11,549 nt of DNA from Clostridia bacterium (GTDB lineage: Bacteria > Bacillota > Clostridia > UBA1381). The notes under the pieces were generated by a model. It searched no databases. It saw only the letters and a list, made by a program, of their open reading frames with translations, and had not been told where the DNA came from. This document shows, piece after piece, positions 1 through 11,549 of this stretch. Each line of letters begins with the position of its first letter. The stretch's first letter is position 1. The stretch covers positions 1 through 11,549 of the forward strand of contig JAFXBO010000015.1 of assembly GCA_017521775.1 (NCBI GenBank), written 5' to 3'. Made by a program: the position numbers and the translations under genes.

Positions 1-141
1 AGTATTGATATAGTTTTCAATTTGGGATTAAGTTTCATTACATCTCCAAACATAGTTGATGTCTTTGAAAAGTGATTAATGGTAAGTTGTGGATGTATCC
101 AATAATAAAGAGAAACCTCCCCAACAAGTGGAGAGGTATGG
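1..141. repeat. Left copy of 141-bp perfect terminal inverted repeat
   Basis: Read directly: bases 1-141 are the exact reverse complement of 11409-11549, and identity stops at base 142 (a here, g in the complement of the other end). The repeat is AT-rich apart from a G/C-rich inner hairpin at 115-137. No target-site duplication can be seen because the window ends at the repeat. Terminal inverted repeats occur in linear replicons, transposons and invertible segments. The exact length of 141 also equals a common assembler k-mer, so the real repeat could extend past the window. I recognise no known transposon end. Confidence 0.97.
115..137 (-). terminator. Outward-facing intrinsic terminator inside left terminal repeat
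   Basis: On the minus strand an 8-bp stem (ACCTCTCC pairing with GGGGAGGT, one U-G wobble) closes a 7-nt loop and is followed by a T-rich tract. It lies about 105 bp past the stop codon of the KAP NTPase gene, so leftward transcription would end just before leaving the element. The mirror copy is in the right repeat. Confidence 0.6.
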
Positions 142-242
142 AGTTATGAATATTGCTTGTGGGATTGGGGATGTTACCTTAATTTCTTGTAAGATGAGAT
201 GTATGGTCTATGTAGTCAGGATATGATTTTGTTATAATGTAT

Positions 243-1718
243 TTAATATATATACTCCTTACATTTTTCAAAAATCCTTTTCATTGCATCTACATCATTA
301 AAACCCTGAGGAGCACGAGAAACATCAATTTCTTTTATTATATAATTTGCTTTTGGAAATCTATTGTTATCTGACAAAACTGTTACAACATTAATATTAA
401 AATACATACTACTATTGCCTATTCTACAATCTATCGTATCTTTTGCACAAGCATCAAAATGAATTACATCTTCACCTTTGTCAATATATGGATGTAACAA
501 CCAACAAGGTCCAATAAATTCACTAAGTTCTGCTATATGTCTCTTATCAATTATATGAATAGATTTATATTGATTAAAGAAAAAATCTATGGTTATTTGG
601 AATTCTTTTAAGATACAAAGCAACTTAGTTACTCTATTATTAGATTCCAGGTTATAGTTTCGTAAATGAAAAGAAATAATATTAGTACTAACCCTATAAA
701 CATTCTTTGTAAAGAATGTTGTTATGTGACGAAGATTTGTTAGAATCCCTTCAGATGACCAATAACGAGATAATATCAAGTCTGCTATTGTTTGCTTGAC
801 ATACTCATATGTTGTAAAATCTGAGGGGAGATGGTCTATTATCCAATCTCTAACCAGAGTCTTTAATGAATATTCAAATGGTAATACTGGTGAATACTTG
901 TGGATATATCCAGTAAAGTCTGTATCCCTACCATAAAAATGATGGAATATATTTTTGATATTCTGGTAATGACATACAAGCAATACCTTGTCAAAATTAT
1001 ATTTGTTTGAAACACTTCCAAAACTCAATTTAGTTTCTGAATAATCATTCATTTCCCAATGAGCAGAAAGTATATTCATTATTCTAAATATATGAGCAGG
1101 ATCAATCCTATCTAAATCTTCAACAACTAATACAACCTTCTTATTGGTTTGTTTCTTAAGGTCAGACAGCAAATCCCATATTAAACGAGATATTGGATCG
1201 AATTCATAGATGCCACCAGTTTGATTGGTAAACGAGTTTATATAATCCTCAATAGTATCCGATTGTGATTTATCTATCTTGCTGTGATATTCCCTAAACC
1301 TAGAAATGTTTTTTTGCAACATATCTATCATCTCCTTTGGAACAAAAGTTAGCAACGGAGCAACCACTGAGATAGCATCATTTATGATTTTATTAAAATT
1401 GGTGCTAAGAAAACCCTCTATAGATTCTATGTAACTATACTTATTATCATCAAGGACAATATCCCCACTCATTAACAACTGAATTAAGATATCTCTTTTT
1501 ATATACTCAAAAATATCCTTGTTGTCAGCAACCTGATATAATACTGGATACAATGTTAAAAAATGATACTCTTCGGAAAGACTCTTTTTCAATTCTTCTA
1601 AAAAGAATGTTTTTCCATCACCGAAACGAGCAGATAGTATTGCTCTATCATTATTTGCTAAGTATTCAGCAAATAAATTCAGTTTGTCATCAATAGGGAT
1701 AATGTTTGTCTTCTCCAT
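243..1718 (-). CDS. KAP-family P-loop NTPase
   Basis: 491 aa, probably a cytoplasmic ATPase. A degenerate Walker A lies at residues 30-37 (ARFGDGKT; the first Gly is replaced by Ala). A hydrophobic Walker B ending in acidic residues is at 195-204 (VVLVVEDLDR), followed by the downstream helix usual in KAP NTPases. Family knowledge: KAP NTPases are STAND-like P-loop proteins common in bacterial accessory DNA, some linked to phage defence and others of unknown role. The substrate here cannot be told from sequence. No transmembrane pair is obvious between the Walker motifs, although 112-127 is hydrophobic. The gene is last in the leftward series, 95 bp after the polymerase-like gene. A -7 element at 1741-1748 suggests its own promoter. 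No Shine-Dalgarno is seen. The family call is fairly sure, the function unknown. Confidence 0.75.
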   Translation of the reverse strand: MEKTNIIPIDDKLNLFAEYLANNDRAILSARFGDGKTFFLEELKKSLSEEYHFLTLYPVLYQVADNKDIFEYIKRDILIQLLMSGDIVLDDNKYSYIESIEGFLSTNFNKIINDAISVVAPLLTFVPKEMIDMLQKNISRFREYHSKIDKSQSDTIEDYINSFTNQTGGIYEFDPISRLIWDLLSDLKKQTNKKVVLVVEDLDRIDPAHIFRIMNILSAHWEMNDYSETKLSFGSVSNKYNFDKVLLVCHYQNIKNIFHHFYGRDTDFTGYIHKYSPVLPFEYSLKTLVRDWIIDHLPSDFTTYEYVKQTIADLILSRYWSSEGILTNLRHITTFFTKNVYRVSTNIISFHLRNYNLESNNRVTKLLCILKEFQITIDFFFNQYKSIHIIDKRHIAELSEFIGPCWLLHPYIDKGEDVIHFDACAKDTIDCRIGNSSMYFNINVVTVLSDNNRFPKANYIIKEIDVSRAPQGFNDVDAMKRIFEKCKEYIY

Positions 1719-1740
1719 TTATGCATTTAGGTTTATTGCC

Positions 1741-1748
1741 CAAAGTTA
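1741..1748 (-). promoter_or_regulatory. Bacteroidetes-type -7 box for the KAP NTPase gene
   Basis: On the minus strand this reads TAACTTTG, a full match to the Bacteroidetes -7 consensus TAnnTTTG, 22 bp before the ATG. Transcription starting about 7 nt downstream would give a very short leader. No clear -33 TTG element is present, so this is a tentative call. Confidence 0.4.
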
Positions 1749-1813
1749 GTAAGAATTATTGTAAAATGTACACCCTGATATAAATAACCACAAACTATAA
1801 TCAAGAAGGTCTT

Positions 1814-3310
1814 TTATGCAGTTCTTCTATTAATGTAGTTGTGGACTCGCTCATTGATATTAAAAGGCACTTCGCCAATCTCGTTTTGGGGTAGGTAGAT
1901 TGCATCGTGGAGTCGAAATGGATGCAACCCTAAGTCTCGTAGGTCATCACATATCGAGTTCATTATCTCGCTCTCTACTCGGTTGGCAGCACTCTTTATG
2001 GATATGCTGCTTTGGTTATGCCAATCGATTAGTGCTTGGTAGATATTAGGGTAATTCTCCTCAAACCAGCAGCACAAAATTCTTCTATTTGGAGCATCTT
2101 TTTCTGCACCACCATAGATGTATGATTTCTCATTTTTAATGCTGAAAAATGACTGAAATGTGGGTTTAATGGCATCTCTTGGAATTTCCTTATCCTTGAC
2201 AACTTCACTATACAAATCACCTTGTTGTGTCAGAGTAATCCAATTGTCAAGTTCATTGTGTGGAATAATCTCGATGCCATTATTTTCAAAGATCTTTGGA
2301 AGCATAGTAAAATGGGCACAACTAATATCACTCGCCTGATCCAATCGTTCCCCTCTAAATGTTACATACTTTCGTATTGGTCTTCTAATTCGTGAAAATG
2401 TTGAATATAGTTTACTATCATTACCATATTTAGGCACTTTGTTTAGTGATGCTAAATCCCTCAAATCTTTTAGGCACATACATTCATCTAATGCCTCTAT
2501 ACTAAATCTCAACTCAGCATAATAATCAAATCTCCCAACACTCTTATTATCAATGGTGTGACAAAGATTGTTCCTGACTATTTGTTCTCTCTTATCTTCT
2601 CTCTCTATTCTCTTTAATAACTCTTTAACTAACTCTAAATAGTTACTACCTAATTTAGATATAGAATTATAGATTCTATTATTTGAAGATCTATTTTCAT
2701 TTTTTGACAATCTCTTGATATAACCAACTAACTCTTTAACCAATAATAACTCATCATTATTGTAAAGCATAGTTGACTCTCGCTTATGCTCTAATCCAAC
2801 ATCTTTATAGTGTTTTCGGATGTAATTGTGCTTTATTTTCAATGCTTGACAGTCAATAGTGGAAATGGGTATTTTTATTGGAAAGACTCTATTCTGGTTT
2901 CCTAAAATATCACAACCAAACTCCAACAACTGATACCTATTAGGTTCCTGCTTAATGCAATATTTACCATCTTTGTTTCGGTATGTTTCTATTGGTTGTT
3001 GCTTGATGTTAACAAACATCTCGCTACTCAATATTGATAGATAGTCTGTGTAGTTTCTTTTGCTTATGCTACGAAAGACCTCACATCTAATAGGTATATA
3101 ATTATTACTCATTGCAATAATATGATGCAGTTTAATCATAGCATAAGTCCTAATTAGACCATCTATACTTCTCTTGTCTTTGTAGTACTGCCTACCTATC
3201 CTCACCAGTCCATTGTATATAAACTCACTCATATACAATGTTATAGTGCTATCTTTTACACTCAATTGTATGTCATTTGCCTTATACTTCATTTTGCCAT
3301 ATACATTCAT
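1814..3310 (-). CDS. Divergent family-A DNA polymerase-like protein (putative replication protein)
   Basis: 498 aa. The C-terminal half has three motifs in the order and spacing of the family-A polymerase palm and fingers. A motif A-like DISCAHFTML starts at D328 (compare DYSQIELR, with the usual Glu replaced by His333). A motif B-like RDAIKPTFQSFF is at 378-389, with R378 and K382 spaced as in the O-helix R-x3-K. A motif C-like LHDAIYLP has H468 and D469. The GDLYSEVV stretch before motif B is also typical of compact phage and plasmid PolA relatives. No 3'-5' exonuclease motifs are visible, and the N-terminal ~300 residues (basic, helical) are unrecognised. Inference: it copies the element or primes its replication. 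No protein-primed family-B polymerase, rolling-circle Rep or Rep_3 protein is encoded here. A terminator lies 46 bp upstream of its start, so it probably has its own promoter, though none is clear. Confidence 0.55.
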   Translation of the reverse strand: MNVYGKMKYKANDIQLSVKDSTITLYMSEFIYNGLVRIGRQYYKDKRSIDGLIRTYAMIKLHHIIAMSNNYIPIRCEVFRSISKRNYTDYLSILSSEMFVNIKQQPIETYRNKDGKYCIKQEPNRYQLLEFGCDILGNQNRVFPIKIPISTIDCQALKIKHNYIRKHYKDVGLEHKRESTMLYNNDELLLVKELVGYIKRLSKNENRSSNNRIYNSISKLGSNYLELVKELLKRIEREDKREQIVRNNLCHTIDNKSVGRFDYYAELRFSIEALDECMCLKDLRDLASLNKVPKYGNDSKLYSTFSRIRRPIRKYVTFRGERLDQASDISCAHFTMLPKIFENNGIEIIPHNELDNWITLTQQGDLYSEVVKDKEIPRDAIKPTFQSFFSIKNEKSYIYGGAEKDAPNRRILCCWFEENYPNIYQALIDWHNQSSISIKSAANRVESEIMNSICDDLRDLGLHPFRLHDAIYLPQNEIGEVPFNINERVHNYINRRTA

Positions 3311-3356
3311 TATTGTTAATACTCTAATTATTATATGGCATTTTGTAGATTTTATT

Positions 3357-3392
3357 AAAAAAAAGACTCAATTCCTAAGCGAATCGAGTCTT
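3357..3392 (-). terminator. Rho-independent terminator after the recombinase/DUF4314 operon
   Basis: The inverted repeat 3363-3374 / 3381-3392 forms a 12-bp stem with a 6-nt loop, followed on the minus strand by a run of eight T (complement of 3357-3364). The only irregular pair is a G-U wobble on the minus-strand RNA but an A-C mismatch on the plus strand, so the minus strand is the intended one. It separates the DUF4314 gene from the polymerase-like gene. Confidence 0.88.
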
Positions 3393-3413
3393 AAACCTTT
3401 ATATATTATGTAG

Positions 3414-3584
3414 TTATAGTATTTCAAAATCATCTGCCTCTGGTATTACAGCAAGACCTCCCCAAGTGCCCCAAAGTTGTCCAATGCTATCAATATGCTC
3501 AACAATACCTTCCCTGCCATCATACACCTCATTTTCACCCTCTAAATGTATAATCCTAATCTTTGTTCCAACCTCTATTTCCAT
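3414..3584 (-). CDS. DUF4314-like small protein
   Basis: 56 aa, found by translating the gap between the recombinase and the terminator. It begins MEIEVGTKIRIIHLEGE and contains a Gly-rich core with IDSIGQLWGTWGGLAVIPE (residues 32-50). The order G-T-K-I-R, then G-x-x-G-x-V, then a D-x-x-G-Q-x-x-x-x-W-G-G-L segment, and a closing Asp-rich end matches the DUF4314 family: short all-beta, SH3-like proteins of unknown function frequent on mobile elements. The ATG is only 3 bp after the recombinase stop, so the two are probably translationally coupled, and the shared terminator lies 22 bp downstream. I found it by eye; the family call rests on motif memory rather than a search. Confidence 0.72.
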   Translation of the reverse strand: MEIEVGTKIRIIHLEGENEVYDGREGIVEHIDSIGQLWGTWGGLAVIPEADDFEIL

Positions 3585-3587
3585 ATC

Positions 3588-4223
3588 CTATTTTTGTGCA
3601 AATTTGTAGAGCTTTCTAATGGTCATAATGCTTGTACCTGTGATAATGCTAATGTTTCTAAGAGACATCCCCTGTTTGAGCAGTGATATCTCCTTTTTGT
3701 ATTGCTCACGCATTGTGTCATCACTTTTACGGTAGGTGGATGGTCTTCCCATTTTGATACCATCTCTTCTACATTTGGCTATGTATTGGTCTCTACCACT
3801 TGCCATTCTATCAATTATGGTGTGTCGCTCCATCTGGGCAACCTCCAAAAGTATAGTGGTTATAAGACTTGTAATAGGATTGATCTTGCCATCTTTATCC
3901 AATGTCTCCAAGTTGTAGTTTTTGATAAATAGACAGACCTTTCTCTCATTCAGGAGTTCAATGATTTTTAGTGCCTCCAATGTATTTCTGCCCAAACGGG
4001 ATATCTCCAAAACACAAACCTTGTCTATATTGTTCTGCTCAATGTATTGGAGCATCTCCATTATCTCTGGTCTATCCTCATTTTTCTTTGTGCCCGACAC
4101 CTTGCTGGCGAATACTCTCATTACCTCGTATCCCATCTTATCGCAGTAGTCCGTGAGTTCTACCACCTGACGATTATACTCTTGCTTATCGGTTGAAACT
4201 CTTGCTAAAATCACTACTCTCAT
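3588..4223 (-). CDS. Serine recombinase (resolvase/invertase family)
   Basis: 211 aa, the usual size for small resolvase/invertase enzymes that cut and rejoin DNA at short dyad sites through a phosphoserine. The catalytic domain starts MRVVILARVST with R8 and nucleophile S10. The SRLGRN motif (75-80) supplies two more active-site arginines; the position that is Asp in gamma-delta resolvase is Ser here, as in many relatives. A long E-helix covers about 113-140. A GRP linker (159-161) leads into a Hin-like helix-turn-helix at about 178-208 (LLKQGMSLRNISIITGTSIM). No insertion typical of large serine integrases is present. Likely roles are resolving multimers, inverting a DNA segment, or cointegrate resolution. 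First gene of a two-gene operon with the DUF4314 protein. Confidence 0.92.
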   Translation of the reverse strand: MRVVILARVSTDKQEYNRQVVELTDYCDKMGYEVMRVFASKVSGTKKNEDRPEIMEMLQYIEQNNIDKVCVLEISRLGRNTLEALKIIELLNERKVCLFIKNYNLETLDKDGKINPITSLITTILLEVAQMERHTIIDRMASGRDQYIAKCRRDGIKMGRPSTYRKSDDTMREQYKKEISLLKQGMSLRNISIITGTSIMTIRKLYKFAQK

Positions 4224-4260
4224 AATCTATCTATTTTTATATAACTATCGGATTATGAAG

Positions 4261-4268
4261 CGAATATA
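4261..4268 (-). promoter_or_regulatory. Possible -7 box for the recombinase operon
   Basis: On the minus strand this reads TATATTCG, a 7-of-8 match to TAnnTTTG, 37 bp before the recombinase ATG. No convincing -33 element. The flanking 4224-4372 is also where a resolvase site would be expected, but I see no clear paired dyads there. Confidence 0.3.
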
Positions 4269-4321
4269 AGCGCAATTTTGGGAATATGCCAGTAAAATAG
4301 AGACAAATTTCAAAATAAAAA

Positions 4322-4337
4322 CACTTTTACAGAAGTG
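4322..4337 (-). terminator. Weak second terminator-like hairpin
   Basis: CACTT / AAGTG (5 bp, 6-nt loop) is followed on the minus strand by a GTTTTTATTTT tract. The stem is short. It may back up the stronger hairpin at 4373-4407 by stopping read-through from the lipoprotein side into the recombinase operon. Confidence 0.3.
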
Positions 4338-4372
4338 AAAAAGAAAATAAAATCACATTTGTAAATATGTAA

Positions 4373-4407
4373 TAAACCCCTGCAACAAATAAAGTCACAG
4401 GGGTTTA
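4373..4407 (-). terminator. Terminator hairpin after the 143-aa gene
   Basis: TAAACCCCTG and CAGGGGTTTA form a perfect 10-bp stem around a 15-nt loop, beginning 12 bp past the stop codon of the 143-aa gene. The following minus-strand bases are T-rich but interrupted, so termination may be partial. It marks the end of the lipoprotein unit. Confidence 0.65.
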
Positions 4408-4418
4408 CTTGTAGATTA

Positions 4419-4850
4419 TCACACTTCTTGCCAAATGAAATAGCTCGTTTCATTTACTTTGTCAAGTGTTGGCATCAACTTTTTCAAATAGCTATTTTCA
4501 GAGAATTTCACACTGAAGAATTTTGCTCCTTGAGGTAGTGGTGCATCTGCATTTTTTATGCAACTCATAAAAAGTCCTAAAAAATCTGTAATACATTTAC
4601 CAATGTATTCATCAGGCAGATTTACCTGGCATTCAAATTCCTCCATATTGTATACATAATCTCTATTAGTATCAATCGAAAAGAGTATTCTGAATATATG
4701 CCTATCAGAAGCATTATTGTTATGCCAATAACACGATAGTGTTGGGGCGTTATAGTATGGATTTAAAGGATTGTGACACACTATACAAATATGGTTGTCC
4801 TCGATTGAAACCCTGTTAATTTTTCCAGTTATACAATACTCTCTTAGCAT
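4419..4850 (-). CDS. Hypothetical protein with possible Cys/His metal site
   Basis: 143 aa, not recognised. C22, C25, C40 and H43 give a C-x2-C-x14-C-x2-H spacing that could bind zinc, with the second pair in the stretch TLSCYWH. The rest alternates hydrophobic beta-like segments (FRILFSID, EFECQVNLP) with a helix around 84-99. No signal peptide or transmembrane helix. It follows the lipoprotein gene by 45 bp on the same strand, has a good Shine-Dalgarno (AAAAAAAGGAGAT directly before the ATG), which is unusual among its neighbours, and ends at the hairpin at 4373-4407. It is probably cotranscribed with the lipoprotein; being cytoplasmic, it could be a regulator or accessory factor, but nothing in the sequence shows which. 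Confidence 0.65.
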   Translation of the reverse strand: MLREYCITGKINRVSIEDNHICIVCHNPLNPYYNAPTLSCYWHNNNASDRHIFRILFSIDTNRDYVYNMEEFECQVNLPDEYIGKCITDFLGLFMSCIKNADAPLPQGAKFFSVKFSENSYLKKLMPTLDKVNETSYFIWQEV

Positions 4851-4895
4851 ATCTCCTTTTTTTGAGATTAAACATAGCCTATTTTACATTACTTA

Positions 4896-7800
4896 TTAAA
4901 AATCAGTTTCCTCTATTGTCTCCCAAATTTTACCCCAATCAGATTCCTTATAGATTGAAAGTTTTCCAATAGGAACAGCTAAATATGGTAATTTATTTAC
5001 ATCATATAAGTAATTGAAGAAAAATGAACCTCCATATCGTTTTCCTGGGAGGTCTGTTCTAAAAGGATCAAATGCGATATAGTTATCTGTATTGAATGAC
5101 CCCTTTACTTCAACATAGTAATCACTCCAACGAGCTTCTTGACCTAATATAAGCGAAGGAACAGAAAGAGCTTTAATATATACCTTATTAAAATTCAAAG
5201 GAAGTGAATATGAGTAATAATTTTCAGATGAATTTATTCTGCCTCCATCTCTAGTAAAAGAATGCCTTGCTATTGAGGAAATGGATTTACCAAGTACTAA
5301 ATACCCAGTCAATCCTGAGCACTCCCAAAAGGCTGCATACTTGATTGTTGTAACCTTGTCAGGAATAATCAAATTGCCAGTTAATTTGCTACAATACGCA
5401 AATGCTCCCTCACCAATTGTTGTGGCATTTGTAGATATTGAAATTTTACCTGCCAAATTAGAACATTTGAAGAATGTATAATTGTTGATAGCTGTTACTC
5501 CGTTTCCAACAACCAAATCTCCAGTAAAACCTGCACATTCATTAAATGCATATTGTCCTAAAGTTGTAACACTATCTGGAATCATCAAATCTCCAGTAAA
5601 ACCTGTACATTTAGAGAATGCATATTCCCCAATAGATGATAATTTATTGCCTAATTTTAATTTTCCATTAAAACTTGATTCTTGAAAACAATAATTACCT
5701 ACAGAAGTAGTTGCATCTGGTATTATTAAATCACCCTTAACTTTTTTACACTGGTAAAATGCATAATCTCCAATTGTCTGCACACACTCTGGAATATACA
5801 GAGATGTTATTTTTGACTGATAAAAAGCTCTATTAGGTATTGATTTAAGTTCAAGAGGTAATAGAACTGTACTAATTGTACTATTCATAAAGCAACCTGC
5901 GGGAAGAGAGGTATTTGTCGTTCCTGATATATCAAGTAGTTTTAGATTAGACATAGTGCGGATGAAATCAAAATCAAAGGTGTTGAGGTTTCCTGTAAGT
6001 GTCAGCTCTTCAACAAATCCTTTCTCGTTAGAACTAATTAGGGTATCAAGAGTTCCTGCTGTAGCAATGTGTAAAGTTTTAGAGATGCCCGCCTTTTGTG
6101 TAATCAATATTGTCTCCGATACTACGCCTAAATCATCTATCAATTTAACGGTAGTATAACGCACTGATTGAGCCTCATTTTTAGCAACAGTAAAGGTCCG
6201 TATTTCATCTCGCATAACAGCACGAGTTTCGGCAACTGAAATCCATGACTGGTCTGCTTCTGGTATTTCAATAGTGTAATCTATATTTGTAGATAGGGAT
6301 ACTTCTAATGTGCCACCTACATAATCGATAGTATATGATTTAGAAGATACTATAATCACACCCTCAACAAAGTTAATTGAGCGCATAATTGTTCGCTCCT
6401 TACCATCAGTTACAAAAATAAGAATCTCTGTTGGTAGAATAGTTGGGGGTGTTGTAATCTCAATAATACCTGTCGCATTGCCCGACTTCTTAACAACTGC
6501 ACGAAAACCATCTTGTGCAAGTGCCTTAATAACGGTATTGTCATCTGCACCTGTAATGGTATATCCAATCGTGTAGGTCTTATCTGCTAATACTCTAATA
6601 TCTTCTGTTTCAGTAAACGACACAGATAATGGATGATGTTTAGGAATGTCAATCTTCTCTCCAGTAGATAGAGTTAGATACACATAATCTTCGTCTTGAG
6701 TAATGCTCTGAAAGAATGAATCACCATCTATACCATCAGTACCATTAGTGCCATCTTTACCATCCTCACCTGTTGCCTTGCCGAGTTGAGTCCACGATGC
6801 GCCATTATCATAAGAGATATACCAATAGCTATTTTCAATCTTTAATTGTGGTATTATAGCATCCTTTCCATTAGAACCATCAGTGCCATCCACACCATCT
6901 TTACCATTTACTCTAACTTTATTTCCTTTCTCATCCAACAACCATTCTCCATTAAGAGTCCAATAAGTAATACCATCGGTATTTGCTCTTACACCAATGA
7001 TAGGTGTTAAACCGTCCACACCATCTTTACCATCATCTCCATTAGAACCATTTTCTCCATCTTTACCGTGATAGATAACAATTGAGCCTGACTTCGCAAA
7101 TGTAATTGTATAACCAATCTGTACACCATTCTCCATCAATGGGGCACAAGTTGTTATGTAATCATTATTTTGCAAAGCACTTACAATAGTCTGTAATGAT
7201 GAAATATTTGTATTCATTTGGTTGCACAAAACTCGCAACTGCTCAAAAGCATACCAAGTTGGAAGTTTAATTTGTGTACCATCACTGAGAGTAAAGATTA
7301 CATAATCACCATTTGATGTGTTTACACTCTGGAAGAAAGAATCTCCATCCTTACCATTAGTACCATTAACACCATCATTACCTGTTGCCCTGCCGAGAAT
7401 AGTCCAAGTGCTCCCATTATCGTAAGAGATATACCAATACTCGTTCTCAATCTTTAGCTGAGGGGCGACTCCATCTTTACCATTGACACCATCATTACCG
7501 TTTATGCCATCCTCTCCGTTTGTGCCATCTTCACCATTGATGCCATCCTTACCATCTGTACCCACAGCTTTAATTTTGTTGCCATCCTCATCTGTTAACC
7601 ACTCTCCATTTATAGTCCAATAATAGATACCGTTAGAATCTTGTTTAACACCAATAATTGGAGTGTATCCATTAATACCATCCTTACCATTAGCACCATC
7701 TTTACCATCTTCGCCGTGATAGATAGTGATAGGAGCACTCTTTGTAAAGGCGATAGTGTAACCTATTGTCTTACCATCTTTTGTTACTGGTGTTACTGCC

Positions 7801-8006
7801 GTAACATAGTCATTGTTCTGTAGAGCAGATACAATAGTCTGTAATGAACTGATATTCGAGTTCATTTGTTGGCACAACTCCTCTAACCTTGAAATTCTTT
7901 GTTCGTGGTCATTAATCTTGTCCCAAATTTGCGTATCATCGAATTTGCTACACGATGATACAAACATAGCTACAACAAAAGCTATGAGTGCTAACAACTT
8001 TCTCAT
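4896..8006 (-). CDS. Large surface lipoprotein: DUF4988-like/collagen-like repeats, BACON domain, BspA-type LRR
   Basis: 1036 aa. A signal peptide (1-18) ends in lipobox FVSSC with lipidated C19; the acidic residues shortly after it (CSKFDD) resemble the Bacteroidetes export signal to the outer face. Residues 26-65 form a coiled coil. Then come two copies of one module (about 44-250 and 260-455), each with the coiled-coil tail LQTIVSALQNND, a beta segment ending in ITIYHG or IVIYHG, Gly-x-y collagen-like tracts, a TPIIGV...YWT.NGEWL segment, and a YWYISYDNG.SW segment. This organisation is familiar from DUF4988/PL29-N-terminal lipoproteins. A BACON-like domain covers about 546-640. LRR_5/BspA repeats cover about 665-918 (recurring I-G-x-x-A-F-x-x-C and L-x-I-P-D). 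A beta-rich tail closes the protein. Likely role: adhesion or glycan binding at the cell surface. No catalytic domain seen. Confidence 0.88.
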   Translation of the reverse strand: MRKLLALIAFVVAMFVSSCSKFDDTQIWDKINDHEQRISRLEELCQQMNSNISSLQTIVSALQNNDYVTAVTPVTKDGKTIGYTIAFTKSAPITIYHGEDGKDGANGKDGINGYTPIIGVKQDSNGIYYWTINGEWLTDEDGNKIKAVGTDGKDGINGEDGTNGEDGINGNDGVNGKDGVAPQLKIENEYWYISYDNGSTWTILGRATGNDGVNGTNGKDGDSFFQSVNTSNGDYVIFTLSDGTQIKLPTWYAFEQLRVLCNQMNTNISSLQTIVSALQNNDYITTCAPLMENGVQIGYTITFAKSGSIVIYHGKDGENGSNGDDGKDGVDGLTPIIGVRANTDGITYWTLNGEWLLDEKGNKVRVNGKDGVDGTDGSNGKDAIIPQLKIENSYWYISYDNGASWTQLGKATGEDGKDGTNGTDGIDGDSFFQSITQDEDYVYLTLSTGEKIDIPKHHPLSVSFTETEDIRVLADKTYTIGYTITGADDNTVIKALAQDGFRAVVKKSGNATGIIEITTPPTILPTEILIFVTDGKERTIMRSINFVEGVIIVSSKSYTIDYVGGTLEVSLSTNIDYTIEIPEADQSWISVAETRAVMRDEIRTFTVAKNEAQSVRYTTVKLIDDLGVVSETILITQKAGISKTLHIATAGTLDTLISSNEKGFVEELTLTGNLNTFDFDFIRTMSNLKLLDISGTTNTSLPAGCFMNSTISTVLLPLELKSIPNRAFYQSKITSLYIPECVQTIGDYAFYQCKKVKGDLIIPDATTSVGNYCFQESSFNGKLKLGNKLSSIGEYAFSKCTGFTGDLMIPDSVTTLGQYAFNECAGFTGDLVVGNGVTAINNYTFFKCSNLAGKISISTNATTIGEGAFAYCSKLTGNLIIPDKVTTIKYAAFWECSGLTGYLVLGKSISSIARHSFTRDGGRINSSENYYSYSLPLNFNKVYIKALSVPSLILGQEARWSDYYVEVKGSFNTDNYIAFDPFRTDLPGKRYGGSFFFNYLYDVNKLPYLAVPIGKLSIYKESDWGKIWETIEETDF
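6642..7877 (-). repeat. Tandem coding duplication in the lipoprotein gene
   Basis: Two direct copies of a ~600-bp module lie in the 5' part of the lipoprotein gene: about 7257-7877 (residues 44-250) and 6642-7229 (residues 260-455). They encode the same order of elements and share stretches such as SSLQTIVSALQNND exactly, but differ in collagen-tract length and many residues. Within each, short GGNAARGAYGGN-type codons give a low-complexity DNA pattern (accatcttt on the plus strand) that could slip or recombine. Confidence 0.8.
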
Positions 8007-8077
8007 ATTAGTAAGATTTATAAATTAGTAATTATCATCCCCAATCTTACTACCCAGCACCTCGATAGTGGTAAATA

Positions 8078-8085
8078 CAAATAAA
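8078..8085 (-). promoter_or_regulatory. Possible -7 box of the lipoprotein gene
   Basis: The minus strand reads TTTATTTG, 7 of 8 against TAnnTTTG, giving a leader of roughly 65 nt to the lipoprotein ATG. It sits inside the CAGCACC...GGTGCTG dyad (8055-8061 / 8094-8100). A better -7 match (TACATTTG, 8288-8295, minus) lies further upstream and would give a ~275-nt structured leader instead. Confidence 0.3.
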
Positions 8086-8197
8086 GAAAGCGTGGTGCTG
8101 AAAACTTATTTTAGATAGTCAGGTCTTAGGATACCTCAGTAATAAAATAAGCAACAGCCCCACGCCATACCCCAATATGTAGGTATGACGCGAGAAG

Positions 8198-8254
8198 ATG
8201 TCTGCCTATTCTCTTACTGGTTTCGAAGTTCCTAAGTTCGACTATCGAGAATAA
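8198..8254 (+). CDS. Possible 18-codon micro-ORF inside the structured region
   Basis: ATG to TAA encodes MSAYSLTGFEVPKFDYRE, a peptide of ordinary, well-mixed composition unlike its AT-rich surroundings. The purine-rich GCGAGAAG just before the ATG could serve weakly as a ribosome site. Its start codon lies in the 9-base segment that can pair with 8324-8332, and its 3' half forms one arm of the long helix with 8114-8131, so folding could control its translation. An ORF of this size arises easily by chance, so this is a low-confidence call. Confidence 0.22.
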   Translation: MSAYSLTGFEVPKFDYRE

Positions 8255-8287
8255 ACTTACACTTTCCGCGTAATTAGTATGTCACTA

Positions 8288-8295
8288 CAAATGTA
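8288..8295 (-). promoter_or_regulatory. Bacteroidetes-type -7 box upstream of the structured region
   Basis: The minus strand reads TACATTTG, a full match to TAnnTTTG. A start about 7 nt downstream (near 8281) would transcribe the structured stretch 8246-8114 and then the lipoprotein gene. No clear -33 TTTG lies 19-23 bp upstream. The site is inside a palindrome (CTACA-AA-TGTAG), which could equally be an operator or an RNA hairpin. Confidence 0.33.
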
Positions 8296-8373
8296 GTAAT
8301 TATTTCGCAGAGTAGTATAAGGGGGCAGGCATTTTTTACTGTTGCTTCATTCAATTTGTTTAATTTGGGCAGT

Positions 8374-8435
8374 ACAAAGTTGGGCGAAACTATCTACAAA
8401 ATCAATATTGAATCAAAACTTTGTTATATGTAGAT
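8374..8435. repeat. Interleaved inverted repeats (H-type pseudoknot geometry)
   Basis: ACAAAGTT (8374-8381) pairs with AACTTTGT (8417-8424), and ATCTACA (8392-8398) pairs with TGTAGAT (8429-8435). The two pairs cross, so as RNA they would form a pseudoknot; as DNA they are two overlapping dyads with the palindrome TCAATATTGA (8402-8411) between. Both pairings are perfect. Function unknown. Confidence 0.6.
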
Positions 8436-8704
8436 TGGGATTTTTTGCATCTATGATAAAAATTTTTCACTTTTTTAAAAAAAAATCGCATCCCCTTAAC
8501 TGATTAATTCCCAATATATTACAAACTACAACTCCTTGTGCCAGCACAAAAAAAATAAAAAATCATCACTTTTTTTCAAAAAATTAAAAATAATTTCTAA
8601 AAAGCAGAATATACATATTAGAATTGTTTTTCAAAAGGAGAGAAGCAATATATTTATTGTAATAATTAAAACCTCACGATGTATAGGTTAATCGTTTTAA
8701 GAGT

Positions 8705-9412
8705 ATGGTACATCGTAAGGGTTTTACAGAGATTGCAAATCTCGAGGGTTATCTCATCAATAAGAAGGGTGAGGTGTTTAGTATGAAGAGCAACAAGACT
8801 CTAAAGGTAACGGATGGTGTTGTTGAGGTCTATGTGGGTGGAATCAAGAAGAAAATAAATGTGGCACACCTGGTATTGGAGACATTCAAGGGAAATCCCT
8901 ATGGTGCAAAGCGAGTCAACTACAAGAATGGGGATAAGAGCGACACTTCGTTGAGCAATCTTGAGTGGTCTATCCCAGCAACAATGACCACTAAAACATC
9001 AAAGTCAGCAAAAGCACCTAATGTAACAAAAGGGACTTCCACAGCTGGTGATACATTATCTTCTCAAGGAATTCTTAATGAGATTAAGAGACTCAAGAAG
9101 CAAATAACAATATTGCAAAAGAAGAAAGATGCATTGGCAAAATCAAATAGTGTGGCAGCATTGATTAAGGAGAATCTTGCCACCATAGTTGAGGGATTGG
9201 CAAAGGGTGAGAAGATTTCAACTCTAACAAAGAGGGTTGTTGGTAAGGTGTTATCCCGTGAGGTTTTATCCAACCACCTAACAAAGAACTGTGGTGTGTC
9301 CCTCGCAGACTTGGTGAGCATCGCCAAACTCTACAAAGCGAAACCTGATTATGTGAAAAGCATAGTTAAACTATACAATGGCAAGATGTCAAATGTAGTA
9401 TTTAGTAAGTAA
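8705..9412 (+). CDS. Hypothetical protein with degenerate NUMOD4/HNH-like N-terminus and coiled coil
   Basis: 235 aa, basic. Residues 8-29 (TEIANLEGYLINKKGEVFSM) follow the 'EGYxVxNxGxV-S' pattern of NUMOD4-type domains, and 54-88 follow the HNH layout 'AHLVLETF...VN..NGDK...SNLEW'. The His normally after VN is Tyr73, so the HNH nuclease centre looks lost although H55 remains. This suggests a DNA-binding protein derived from a homing-type endonuclease. A Thr/Ser/Lys-rich linker (93-120) leads to a Leu/Ile coiled coil (about 123-149) and a helical C-terminus (150-230). It is the first rightward gene, after the 698-bp control region, with an AT-rich leader and no clear Shine-Dalgarno at this start. 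The 124-aa acidic gene follows after 38 bp, probably in the same transcript. Possible regulator or origin-binding protein; that is inference. Confidence 0.7.
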   Translation: MVHRKGFTEIANLEGYLINKKGEVFSMKSNKTLKVTDGVVEVYVGGIKKKINVAHLVLETFKGNPYGAKRVNYKNGDKSDTSLSNLEWSIPATMTTKTSKSAKAPNVTKGTSTAGDTLSSQGILNEIKRLKKQITILQKKKDALAKSNSVAALIKENLATIVEGLAKGEKISTLTKRVVGKVLSREVLSNHLTKNCGVSLADLVSIAKLYKAKPDYVKSIVKLYNGKMSNVVFSK

Positions 9413-9450
9413 CGTAAATAATTGTTTAACAAATTAAAAATTAATAAAAT

Positions 9451-9825
9451 ATGAGTAATAATAACATTAAGAAGATTGAGAAGAAGTATGATTTATTGAT
9501 TAATGGGATGCCCATTTCAAGCATTGAAGACACATTGATTGAGTATTGGACGAATAATATAGGTAACTATGGTGGGGAATCTTTTGAGATTGATATTGTC
9601 GGCAATAGAAAATGGGAGCGATTATTGGAAGATACCGAGTGTGAATATATCGATATTGCAAATTATGAATACGATGATTATGATGACGAGGAATATGAGG
9701 ACGATTGCGAGGAGGGGGATGATGATGCAATCACTCTAAAAGGAGAAAATGGATGGTATGAGTCATATGATAAAGATATGTTACTACGTGATGCCTTAGT
9801 GGATTTTATCATCAATTTAGGATGA
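9451..9825 (+). CDS. Highly acidic small protein
   Basis: 124 aa, not recognised. Residues 73-92 are almost entirely Asp/Glu with interspersed Tyr (15 of 20 acidic), flanked by an N-terminal part with mixed charge (IKKIEKKYDLLINGMPISSIEDTLIEYW, given here as a described segment from residue 6 on) and a C-terminal amphipathic stretch (LLRDALVDFI). No signal peptide or membrane segment. It lies 38 bp after the degenerate-HNH gene and ends 53 bp before a strong terminator, so the two likely form an operon. Strong negative charge is seen in DNA-mimic inhibitors and in partners of basic proteins; its neighbour is a basic, probably DNA-binding protein, so pairing is conceivable but unproven. Confidence 0.65.
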   Translation: MSNNNIKKIEKKYDLLINGMPISSIEDTLIEYWTNNIGNYGGESFEIDIVGNRKWERLLEDTECEYIDIANYEYDDYDDEEYEDDCEEGDDDAITLKGENGWYESYDKDMLLRDALVDFIINLG

Positions 9826-9878
9826 TGCAGATAATAATTTACCAAAGATTATTAAATTATACATATGAAAAATTATTG

Positions 9879-9917
9879 AAAAGTCTTGACTACAATGTGG
9901 TCGAGACTTTTTGTTTT
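9879..9917 (+). terminator. Rho-independent terminator of the rightward two-gene unit
   Basis: AAAAGTCTTGAC (9879-9890) and GTCGAGACTTTT (9900-9911) form a 12-bp stem with a 9-nt loop, followed by TTGTTTT. The single irregular pair is U-G on the plus-strand RNA but A-C on the minus strand, which fixes the orientation. Confidence 0.88.
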
Positions 9918-10236
9918 CAATATCTATCAGGATAATGCTAACAAACTCTGCCACCCTCTCTTTATCACACACATTTTCAGGGGAGGGGAAACCCCACAAA
10001 GCAAAAAACAACCAACAAAACAGATGACTATAATTTGCAAACCTCTGTTATTCAGTGGTGTATATCTCTTTGTGAGTCTATGATGTTGATTTTGTTGGAT
10101 AAATCTTTGTGCTAAACTGCTGTAAAATAGAATGTTTTTCTTGAAAATTTTAGGGATTTTTGGAGAAAAACAGACAAAAAATCAGCAAAAACCACATCAA
10201 ATATTCCAGTATAAATAAAGAAAAACTTGATGATTT
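9918..10236. other. 319-bp intergenic region, no gene seen
   Basis: There is no convincing ORF. It contains a G-rich/C-rich short dyad GGGG-AAA-CCCC (9985-9995) preceded by another GGGG, then A-rich sequence with repeated CAAAAAA-like runs (10002-10020, 10170-10195) leading to the 264-aa gene. No exact TAnnTTTG -7 box was found for that gene; its promoter must lie here because a terminator precedes it. Confidence 0.6.
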
Positions 10237-11031
10237 ATGGAAGATAAAATGAAAGTTATGCCTCCATTTACACATATTAAGACATTGGAGGATGGGATTT
10301 ATGGTTGCACATTATTAGTTGCAGATAGAATTTTCAATGGTGTATTTACCCCAGATTGGAAGTGTATGGAAAAATTAGATTTAGTTGAGGTTGATGCCTA
10401 TGCTGACTATGATTACAAACTAAAAGAGGGACTTATCCCAATTTTTGACAAAGATGAACTTGATATAGTTTACAATGATGCAGAAGAGTTAGCAAGGGCA
10501 TTAATCCTGAATTTTGAGAATAAAGATACATATATAGATGAAGAGGTGACACCATTGGCACTTTTCATATCACAATATGAGGACACTAATGGGAATATCG
10601 CAAAAACATTAGAGAACACATTATTACCTTATCAATATTTTGTTTCACCATTTTTGGATAACTTCTTTTTGAAATTGTACTTTTGTGGGTGTGGTAGAAT
10701 GTGGTCTAGTTGCAAACTATGCTGGAATAGGGTTAAAACGAAATTTGGTATAGATTTAATCGGCAATGACAATCCATTTGATACAGCATTGAAGCAGGTT
10801 ATAGATGAATACCAAACATTTGATAATGCTGTTTTTGATATAGTGGATGCAAAATACCCAGATGTGGGTGTTGTAGATAGTGAATTCGATAAATATTTTT
10901 GTGAGGAGTTAGAGAAGATAGAAAATGAATTCAAACGAAGGTTGTATGATGGTGAATACGATTTTTGCTACTATGGGTATCTACAATACCTTAACGACAA
11001 CTGCAAAGAGAACTTTATGGGGAAAAATTAG
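10237..11031 (+). CDS. Orphan acidic protein with a Cys cluster
   Basis: 264 aa, not recognised. A cluster C150-x-C152-x6-C159-x2-C162 (CGCGRMWSSCKLCW) in the middle could bind a metal ion and is the only motif-like element. The rest is rich in Asp, Glu and Tyr, with long helices predicted by eye around 82-94 and 225-240 and a Tyr-rich end (YDFCYYGYLQYL). No signal peptide; cytoplasmic. It is a single gene between terminators at 9879-9917 and 11062-11096. The ATG at 10237 is chosen as the longest option; in-frame ATGs at 10249 and 10258 are equally possible because no Shine-Dalgarno decides. Function unknown. Confidence 0.7.
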   Translation: MEDKMKVMPPFTHIKTLEDGIYGCTLLVADRIFNGVFTPDWKCMEKLDLVEVDAYADYDYKLKEGLIPIFDKDELDIVYNDAEELARALILNFENKDTYIDEEVTPLALFISQYEDTNGNIAKTLENTLLPYQYFVSPFLDNFFLKLYFCGCGRMWSSCKLCWNRVKTKFGIDLIGNDNPFDTALKQVIDEYQTFDNAVFDIVDAKYPDVGVVDSEFDKYFCEELEKIENEFKRRLYDGEYDFCYYGYLQYLNDNCKENFMGKN

Positions 11032-11061
11032 TCTTCCCTAAAAACATCATAACTTTTGCTT

Positions 11062-11096
11062 CCTCCCTAATGTAATGTTAGGGAGGTTTTTATTTT
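11062..11096 (+). terminator. Rho-independent terminator after the 264-aa gene
   Basis: CCTCCCTAA (11062-11070) and TTAGGGAGG (11078-11086) form a perfect 9-bp stem with a 7-nt loop, followed by TTTTTATTTT. It is 30 bp past the stop codon and only 40 bp before the next start. Confidence 0.92.
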
Positions 11097-11135
11097 ACCC
11101 ACCAATACACCTGTATAAATAAAACAAAAACAGTT

Positions 11136-11387
11136 ATGAGAACAACAGACACAAGAAAACTAAACAGGTTAATTAGGGAGAGTTTTGAGGATGGATATAG
11201 TAATCTTGGACAAACTCCTATCGCATTACTCGGAATAGAAGATATCATTGATTTAATTATGTTGACCATCGCAGCAATGAAAAGTGAGAATTTGATTCCA
11301 TCAGTTTCGGAAAGACAAAAAGAAAAAGTCAAAAGAAGACTATATGAAGCAGGTAATAGAAGAAGATGTCGAATTTCGAGAAAGTAA
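11136..11387 (+). CDS. Small basic helical orphan protein
   Basis: 83 aa, not recognised. An Arg/Lys-rich start (MRTTDTRKLNRLIRE) is followed by a hydrophobic helix (about 27-47, IALLGIEDIIDLIMLTIAAM) and a strongly basic tail (RQKEKVKRRL and NRRRCRISRK). The hydrophobic part contains acidic residues, so it looks more like a packed helix than a membrane span. It may bind nucleic acid, judged only from charge. It sits immediately before the right terminal repeat, whose inner hairpin would end its transcript. A terminator precedes it by 40 bp, leaving little room for a promoter, so expression may depend on read-through. No Shine-Dalgarno. Confidence 0.55.
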   Translation: MRTTDTRKLNRLIRESFEDGYSNLGQTPIALLGIEDIIDLIMLTIAAMKSENLIPSVSERQKEKVKRRLYEAGNRRRCRISRK

Positions 11388-11408
11388 TAACTATAACTTT
11401 CCTACCCC

Positions 11409-11549
11409 CCATACCTCTCCACTTGTTGGGGAGGTTTCTCTTTATTATTGGATACATCCACAACTTACCATTAATCACTTTTCAAAGACATCAACTATGT
11501 TTGGAGATGTAATGAAACTTAATCCCAAATTGAAAACTATATCAATACT
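11409..11549. repeat. Right copy of 141-bp perfect terminal inverted repeat
   Basis: This is the exact reverse complement of bases 1-141. It begins 21 bp after the stop codon of the 83-aa gene and runs to the last base of the window. Confidence 0.97.
11413..11446 (+). terminator. Outward-facing intrinsic terminator inside right terminal repeat
   Basis: ACCTCTCC (11413-11420) and GGGGAGGT (11428-11435) form an 8-bp stem with one U-G wobble and a 7-nt loop, followed by TTTCTCTTTATT. It starts 25 bp past the 83-aa gene's stop codon and would end rightward transcription inside the repeat. The stem is weaker on the opposite strand (A-C in place of U-G), so it faces outward. Confidence 0.65.

Follow-up and report, generated by a model that had tools for sequence, protein, structure and literature searches.

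The window, by which we mean the whole stretch of 11,549 nucleotides analyzed here, is an entire contig (C163:1-11549) of G000, a MAG of 1,160,744 bases in 240 contigs that is 72% complete. Its genes fall into two blocks that diverge outward from approximately positions 8010 to 8700, and the whole is framed by the two arms of an inverted repeat (Table 1). A consensus scan found 14 terminator-like sites in the window, compared to 5.0 ± 2.1 in shuffled sequences. The surface-protein ORF carries collagen-like repeats of 9-base units between positions 6715 and 7724, with two internal duplications of 71 to 77% identity (offsets 612 and 648). A phage genome was considered and rejected: the ORFs include no structural genes, and the surface protein matches collagen-like tail fibres through its repeats.

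Table 1. Features of the window, in order of position, with the evidence for each
Feature	Position	Strand	Evidence or remarks
Left inverted-repeat arm, as far as the contig reaches	1..141	+	Exact reverse complement of 11409-11549; matches inner end of both 705-bp yak arms
Terminator-like hairpin at inner edge of left arm, outward, after KAP gene	115..137	-	Consensus scan
KAP-family P-loop NTPase, 491 aa	243..1718	-	PF07693, 26.6 bits (cut-off 20); GDGKT and VVLVVED stretches
ORF2, 498 aa, putative member of a phage/plasmid family with distant kinship to PolA	1814..3310	-	Matches five distant proteins at profile level (see text)
Small serine recombinase (resolvase/invertase type), 211 aa	3588..4223	-	PF00239, 104 bits (cut-off 23.3); phrog_125 DNA invertase, E 1.8e-33
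Cargo block not common to yak copy	4280..7992	-	143-aa ORF and most of 1036-aa surface lipoprotein ORF
143-aa ORF in cargo	4419-4850	-	
1036-aa surface lipoprotein ORF	4896-8006	-	DUF4988, collagen-like and BspA repeats
HNH/homing-endonuclease-like protein, 235 aa	8705..9412	+	phrog_959, E 3.3e-17; PADLOC HEase models; Pfam HNH_3 below cut-off
124-aa ORF, no function assigned	9451..9825	+	118/124 identical to yak
264-aa ORF, no function assigned	10237..11031	+	95.8% identical to yak
83-aa ORF, no function assigned	11136..11387	+	97.6% identical to yak
Right inverted-repeat arm, as far as the contig reaches	11409..11549	-	Exact reverse complement of 1-141
Same terminator-like hairpin at inner edge of right arm, outward	11413..11435	+	Consensus scan

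The recombinase is of invertase size and matches the model for the Mpi-type invertases of the Bacteroidales (E 6.6e-18). Unlike those enzymes, however, it scores 65.1 bits against a model cut-off of 272, and it is not accompanied by convincing short repeats of the invertible-promoter kind; the seven pairs of perfect inverted repeats of at least 12 bp within 4 kb in the window include none that is convincing as an inversion site. Relatives of the recombinase were not confirmed in viral contigs, nor were those of the KAP protein, for which two plasmid records showed 30 to 40% identity over approximately 60% of the protein.

The two ends of the window are perfect inverted copies of one another over 141 bp, and beyond that length the two inward sequences differ immediately (AGTTATGAAT versus GGGGTAGGAA). 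When both 300-base ends were shuffled 2000 times, the longest end-anchored perfect inverted match was 8 bases. The repeat and the abrupt inner divergence described in a preliminary, sequence-only reading of this DNA are both confirmed. The inner border of the repeat is real, and its outer borders in the window coincide with the contig ends. A query with positions 1 to 200 matched G000 at the two window ends only.

A length of 141 is the usual, default last k of the MEGAHIT assembler, and the window ends presumably carry an overlap of exactly this k. A MEGAHIT run with k-max 141 has been documented (PMC8883645), and the catalogue containing the yak MAG discussed below was assembled by MEGAHIT 1.1.1, its available text stating no k option (PMC8199421). 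The available text on CheckV reports that terminal direct repeats accumulate at assembler k values and makes no statement on inverted repeats such as these (PMC8116208).

A single close relative of the window was found, on a 19.7-kb contig (JAGCKG010000135.1; L007) of the Alistipes sp. RGIG9868 MAG (G061) from yak rectum. It was the one locus recovered when genome contigs were searched for ORF2, and the contig was then analyzed in full. The yak inverted repeat occupies positions 174 to 878 and 17181 to 17885, giving arms of 705 bp that lie 16.3 kb apart and are 96% identical, with 27 mismatches. The window arm aligns with the inner end of both yak arms (130 of 142 and 132 of 138 positions), and window base 1 corresponds to L007 positions 741 and 17318, well inside the 705-bp repeat. 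Because the repeat in this close relative runs well past 141 bp, the most likely reading of the window ends is that the assembly broke off within a longer inverted repeat, not that a linear molecule terminates there. This supports the caution in the sequence-only reading that the repeat might extend outside the contig. A search of G000 for the remaining, outer portion of the repeat gave only a 51-bp match inside ORF2, and the right flank of the yak element had no match there.

These observations bear directly on the proposal that the window is a linear plasmid or virus-like replicon, the contig ends being true termini with 141-bp terminal inverted repeats and the polymerase-like protein acting in terminal replication. 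The perfect terminal repeat, the two outward gene blocks, and the polymerase-like ORF would suit such a replicon, and the window contig shares with linear plasmids of this type the presence of inverted repeats at both ends. In the yak relative, however, the repeats are not termini, and DNA runs on past both arms, for 173 bp and 1842 bp; moreover, 141 is a common assembler k, and no viral-contig, phage, or plasmid relative was found. We consider a linear replicon very improbable, leaving that part of the sequence-only reading unsupported. Borrelia-like hairpin ends were also considered and set aside.

Foldbacks can occur in short-read assemblies, raising the question of whether the second arm is artefactual, a product of chance or of the assembler, with no inverted repeat in the cell. 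An independent MAG nevertheless has the same two arms around the same genes, and mismatches between arms in the number seen there are unlike a foldback. The yak copy appears largely to refute this explanation, which we rate as exceedingly improbable. It is, on the other hand, highly probable that the window represents the single-copy segment of a larger mobile element from gut bacteria, an integrative element of Bacteroidales type in which this segment lies between two inverted repeats, and that its ends are an assembly break. This fits the suggestion in the sequence-only reading that the window may be a repeat-flanked part of something larger.

Comparing the window to the yak element revealed the extent of conservation and of variability between the two copies. 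Common to both are the KAP, ORF2, serine recombinase, and HNH genes and the 124-, 264-, and 83-aa ORFs, in one order and between homologous inverted repeats. The yak element differs in that its arms are not 100% identical, in having its own cargo (fimbrillin-like and M64/BspA proteins), and in carrying approximately 3.1 kb of extra DNA close to one of the arms, where an ApeA-like HEPN protein is encoded. DNA identity in the collinear blocks was 86% over window positions 1 to 3392, 78% over 3594 to 4279, 75% over 7993 to 10221, and 97% over 10196 to 11549. At the protein level, KAP was conserved at 480 of 491 positions (the yak copy scoring 25.2 bits against the same Pfam cut-off), as were the three small rightward ORFs to a similar degree (Table 1); conservation was lower for the recombinase (175 of 211), ORF2 (347 of 500), and the HNH protein (128 of 244). 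The genes near the arms (243-1718, 9451-9825, and 10237-11387) are thus 95 to 98% identical to their yak counterparts, versus 52 to 83% for the central ORF2, recombinase, and HNH genes. This uneven identity suggests that mosaic exchange may have taken place between elements.

The cargo between the recombinase and HNH genes is wholly different in the two copies (window 4280-7992 versus L007 7373-13243), with the flanking genes in common; the start region of the lipoprotein gene (7993-8006) is still common to the yak copy. Within the 3.1 kb present only in the yak element, L007 positions 2374 to 3708 encode a 444-aa protein with an ApeA N-terminal domain (141.8 bits) and a HEPN domain (61.5 bits), both above cut-off, which we take to be an anti-phage type of protein. 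Each yak arm also contains a 67-bp stretch resembling part of ORF2 (L007 388-454 and 17605-17671), with 78 to 81% identity in a 68-bp alignment and 48 to 55% over 22 to 27 residues at the protein level, perhaps a decayed fragment of the gene.

ORF2 itself matched no protein family above cut-off. A profile built from ORF2 and its yak relative matched a set of five distant proteins, from a G271 locus, two huge-phage loci, an Aeromonas phage, and a Hymenobacter plasmid, with a score of 72.5, compared to at most 23.4 in 60 shuffled decoys. The five-protein set in turn matched PolA with a score of 36.4 (at most 24.1 in decoys), at a modest probability of 21 to 26%; ORF2 and its yak relative alone scored 15.8 against PolA, under the best decoy (24.3). 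From reading of the alignments, D328, R378/K382, and H468-D469 are candidates for polymerase motifs A, B, and C, and a role for ORF2 in polymerization or replication would be consistent with this assignment. A structure predicted from the two sequences had a pLDDT of 33 and was unusable. On a huge-phage record (LR756511.1, L043, 700-3146), a relative of the distant family of ORF2 lies directly before a second ORF, apparently PolA-like, with 20 to 22% identity to PolA.

Relatives of ORF2 were scarce. None was confirmed in viral contigs, searches of overlapping sets of 61, 70, and 95 genomes returned only the window's own genome, and in the order of the Alistipes MAG relatives were present in 2 of 393 genomes, one of the two being distant.

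Both yak arms end in the same 13-mer, CCGCCGGAATCAC, in inverted orientation to one another. This 13-mer has three occurrences in the yak MAG: one on each arm tip and one at the tRNA-Arg(TCT) 3′ end. Approximately 0.04 would be expected by chance, and the reversed control gave none. At the right arm it is followed by GAGCG and then by a region containing T5orf172 and a fragment of an Arm-DNA-binding (integrase) domain. The tRNA-Arg(TCT) gene, on contig C104 of the same MAG, ends in the 13-mer and is likewise followed by GAGCG and then by a paralogue of the right-flank region (78 and 91%). The DNA following this lone tRNA copy is other than the element, and the visible tRNA-Arg(TCT) site of the MAG is unoccupied by it. 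The junction core identical to the tRNA 3′ end is seen in the yak copy only; the window stops short of the arm tips.

The left yak arm is followed by 173 bp with a GC content of 31% and no tRNA, compared to GC contents of 34% for the element, 41% for the right flank, and 44 to 47% for sampled host contigs. An element ending at the left arm would be expected to have the tRNA beside it, and the simplest reading is that the element would continue leftward and that the left core would be an unused, inverted copy. The tRNA-side junction, which would be a fourth copy of the 13-mer, was not found in the yak MAG, possibly an incomplete one or a strain mixture; to account for this we have to assume a mixture of strains or missing contigs. 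The yak element thus resembles the tyrosine-recombinase integrative elements that occupy tRNA 3′ ends in having, at its junction with the host, a short core identical to the tRNA 3′ end. It differs from them in having a second, inverted core on a long inverted repeat, and neither the tRNA-side junction nor a tyrosine recombinase or integrase was found, the latter among the 9 ORFs of the window and the 14 yak ORFs scanned in or between the arms. As judged from these sequences, integration of the element at tRNA-Arg has about an even chance of being correct.

An alternative to be weighed here is that the long repeats are the ends of a transposon inserted next to tRNA-Arg, possibly a self-synthesizing one like the casposons, for which the available text describes TIRs, PolB and HNH, along with tRNA 3′ ends in five euryarchaeal cases (PMC4046053). 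Long inverted repeats, an HNH-like protein, a polymerase-like protein of its own, and arm tips at a tRNA 3′ end are likenesses that would favor this explanation. However, no match to Cas1, PolB, or a transposase was seen among the scanned ORFs of the window and the yak contig, no direct target-site duplication was apparent by eye at the yak arm tips, and each arm includes the 13-mer within it, the two copies being inverted. In addition, the relative seems to extend past one arm, the one with no tRNA beside it. A transposon ending at these repeats, which the sequence-only reading had also put forward, finds no support in these observations, and we regard it as distinctly unlikely.

Another candidate is a circular plasmid carrying two long inverted repeats, of which the yak contig would be an occasional integration or else a chimera. 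Such a plasmid would be in keeping with the plasmid-like gene set, with the distant relative of ORF2 on a circular Hymenobacter plasmid, and with the form of the contig, an assembler being expected to cut such a circle at its repeats, as observed. Against it, the tRNA-type flank and the presence of the 13-mer in tRNA-Arg point to site-specific integration. In the database searches, no plasmid record matched the window DNA (megablast), the repeat (blastn), or ORF2 (tblastn), and the searches with window DNA and ORF2 were equally negative for phages. This explanation is, in our judgment, unlikely.

The host of the window element deserves separate consideration. MAG G000 belongs to a different order from that of the Alistipes MAG: with up to 400 genomes admitted, its order comprised 95, compared to 393 drawn from a larger group for the order of the Alistipes MAG. 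The end of its PolA is 45.6% identical to that of the Alistipes MAG, compared to 53.6% between two members of the latter's order. The window cargo carries DUF4988 and BspA repeats, which we take to be of Bacteroidota type. Because the window DNA is up to 97% identical to the Alistipes element, and because the two MAGs differ in order and the PolA of G000 is the more remote, the contig is probably misbinned rather than native to G000, with recent transfer into G000 as the alternative.

The observations support a model, moderately probable as a whole, in which site-specific recombination at the tRNA-Arg 3′ end would integrate the element through the core of one arm, and the other arm would retain a second, inverted core inside the element. 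The remainder of the element, presumably with the integrase, would lie beyond the left arm. The contig would stop 141 bp into each repeat at the point where the assembler, working with an overlap of k = 141, could not choose between identical arms. The distantly PolA-like protein may assist in copying the element once excised. Recombination of one arm with the other, through homology or the serine recombinase, could turn the inner segment around; we place less confidence in the copying and the flipping than in integration at the tRNA. The model draws on a single relative, and this relative is a MAG contig and so could be chimeric. A stronger version, in which the element copies itself with its PolA-like polymerase, integrates at tRNA-Arg through either arm, and inverts the inner segment and its cargo between the cores, is doubtful.

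The element is rare in the collections searched. Exact patterns of the repeat were absent from viral contigs, and the repeat with the left flank matched 9 of 393 genomes, comprising the Alistipes MAG itself and eight short, weak matches of 27 to 61 bp that we have taken as chance. No similar element was recognized in the literature by title or abstract, within a scope that mostly excluded subscription journals.

Terminal inverted repeats of at least 20 bp are taken as a sign of a closed genome, according to the available text on CheckV (PMC8116208). A contig such as the one described here could be filed as a finished linear genome, and its relative shows it to be the middle portion of an element, severed at the repeats. 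The polymerase-like ORF2 protein has remote relatives in huge phages and on a Hymenobacter plasmid. The exchangeable cargo consists of surface proteins, joined in the yak copy by the ApeA-like defence protein. An integrative unit in which each arm of a long inverted repeat bears a tRNA-type core was rare in the collections searched, and it is this doubled and inverted tRNA core that most merits further attention. If both cores work, the element would be a simple natural system in which integration and inversion proceed through the same sites.
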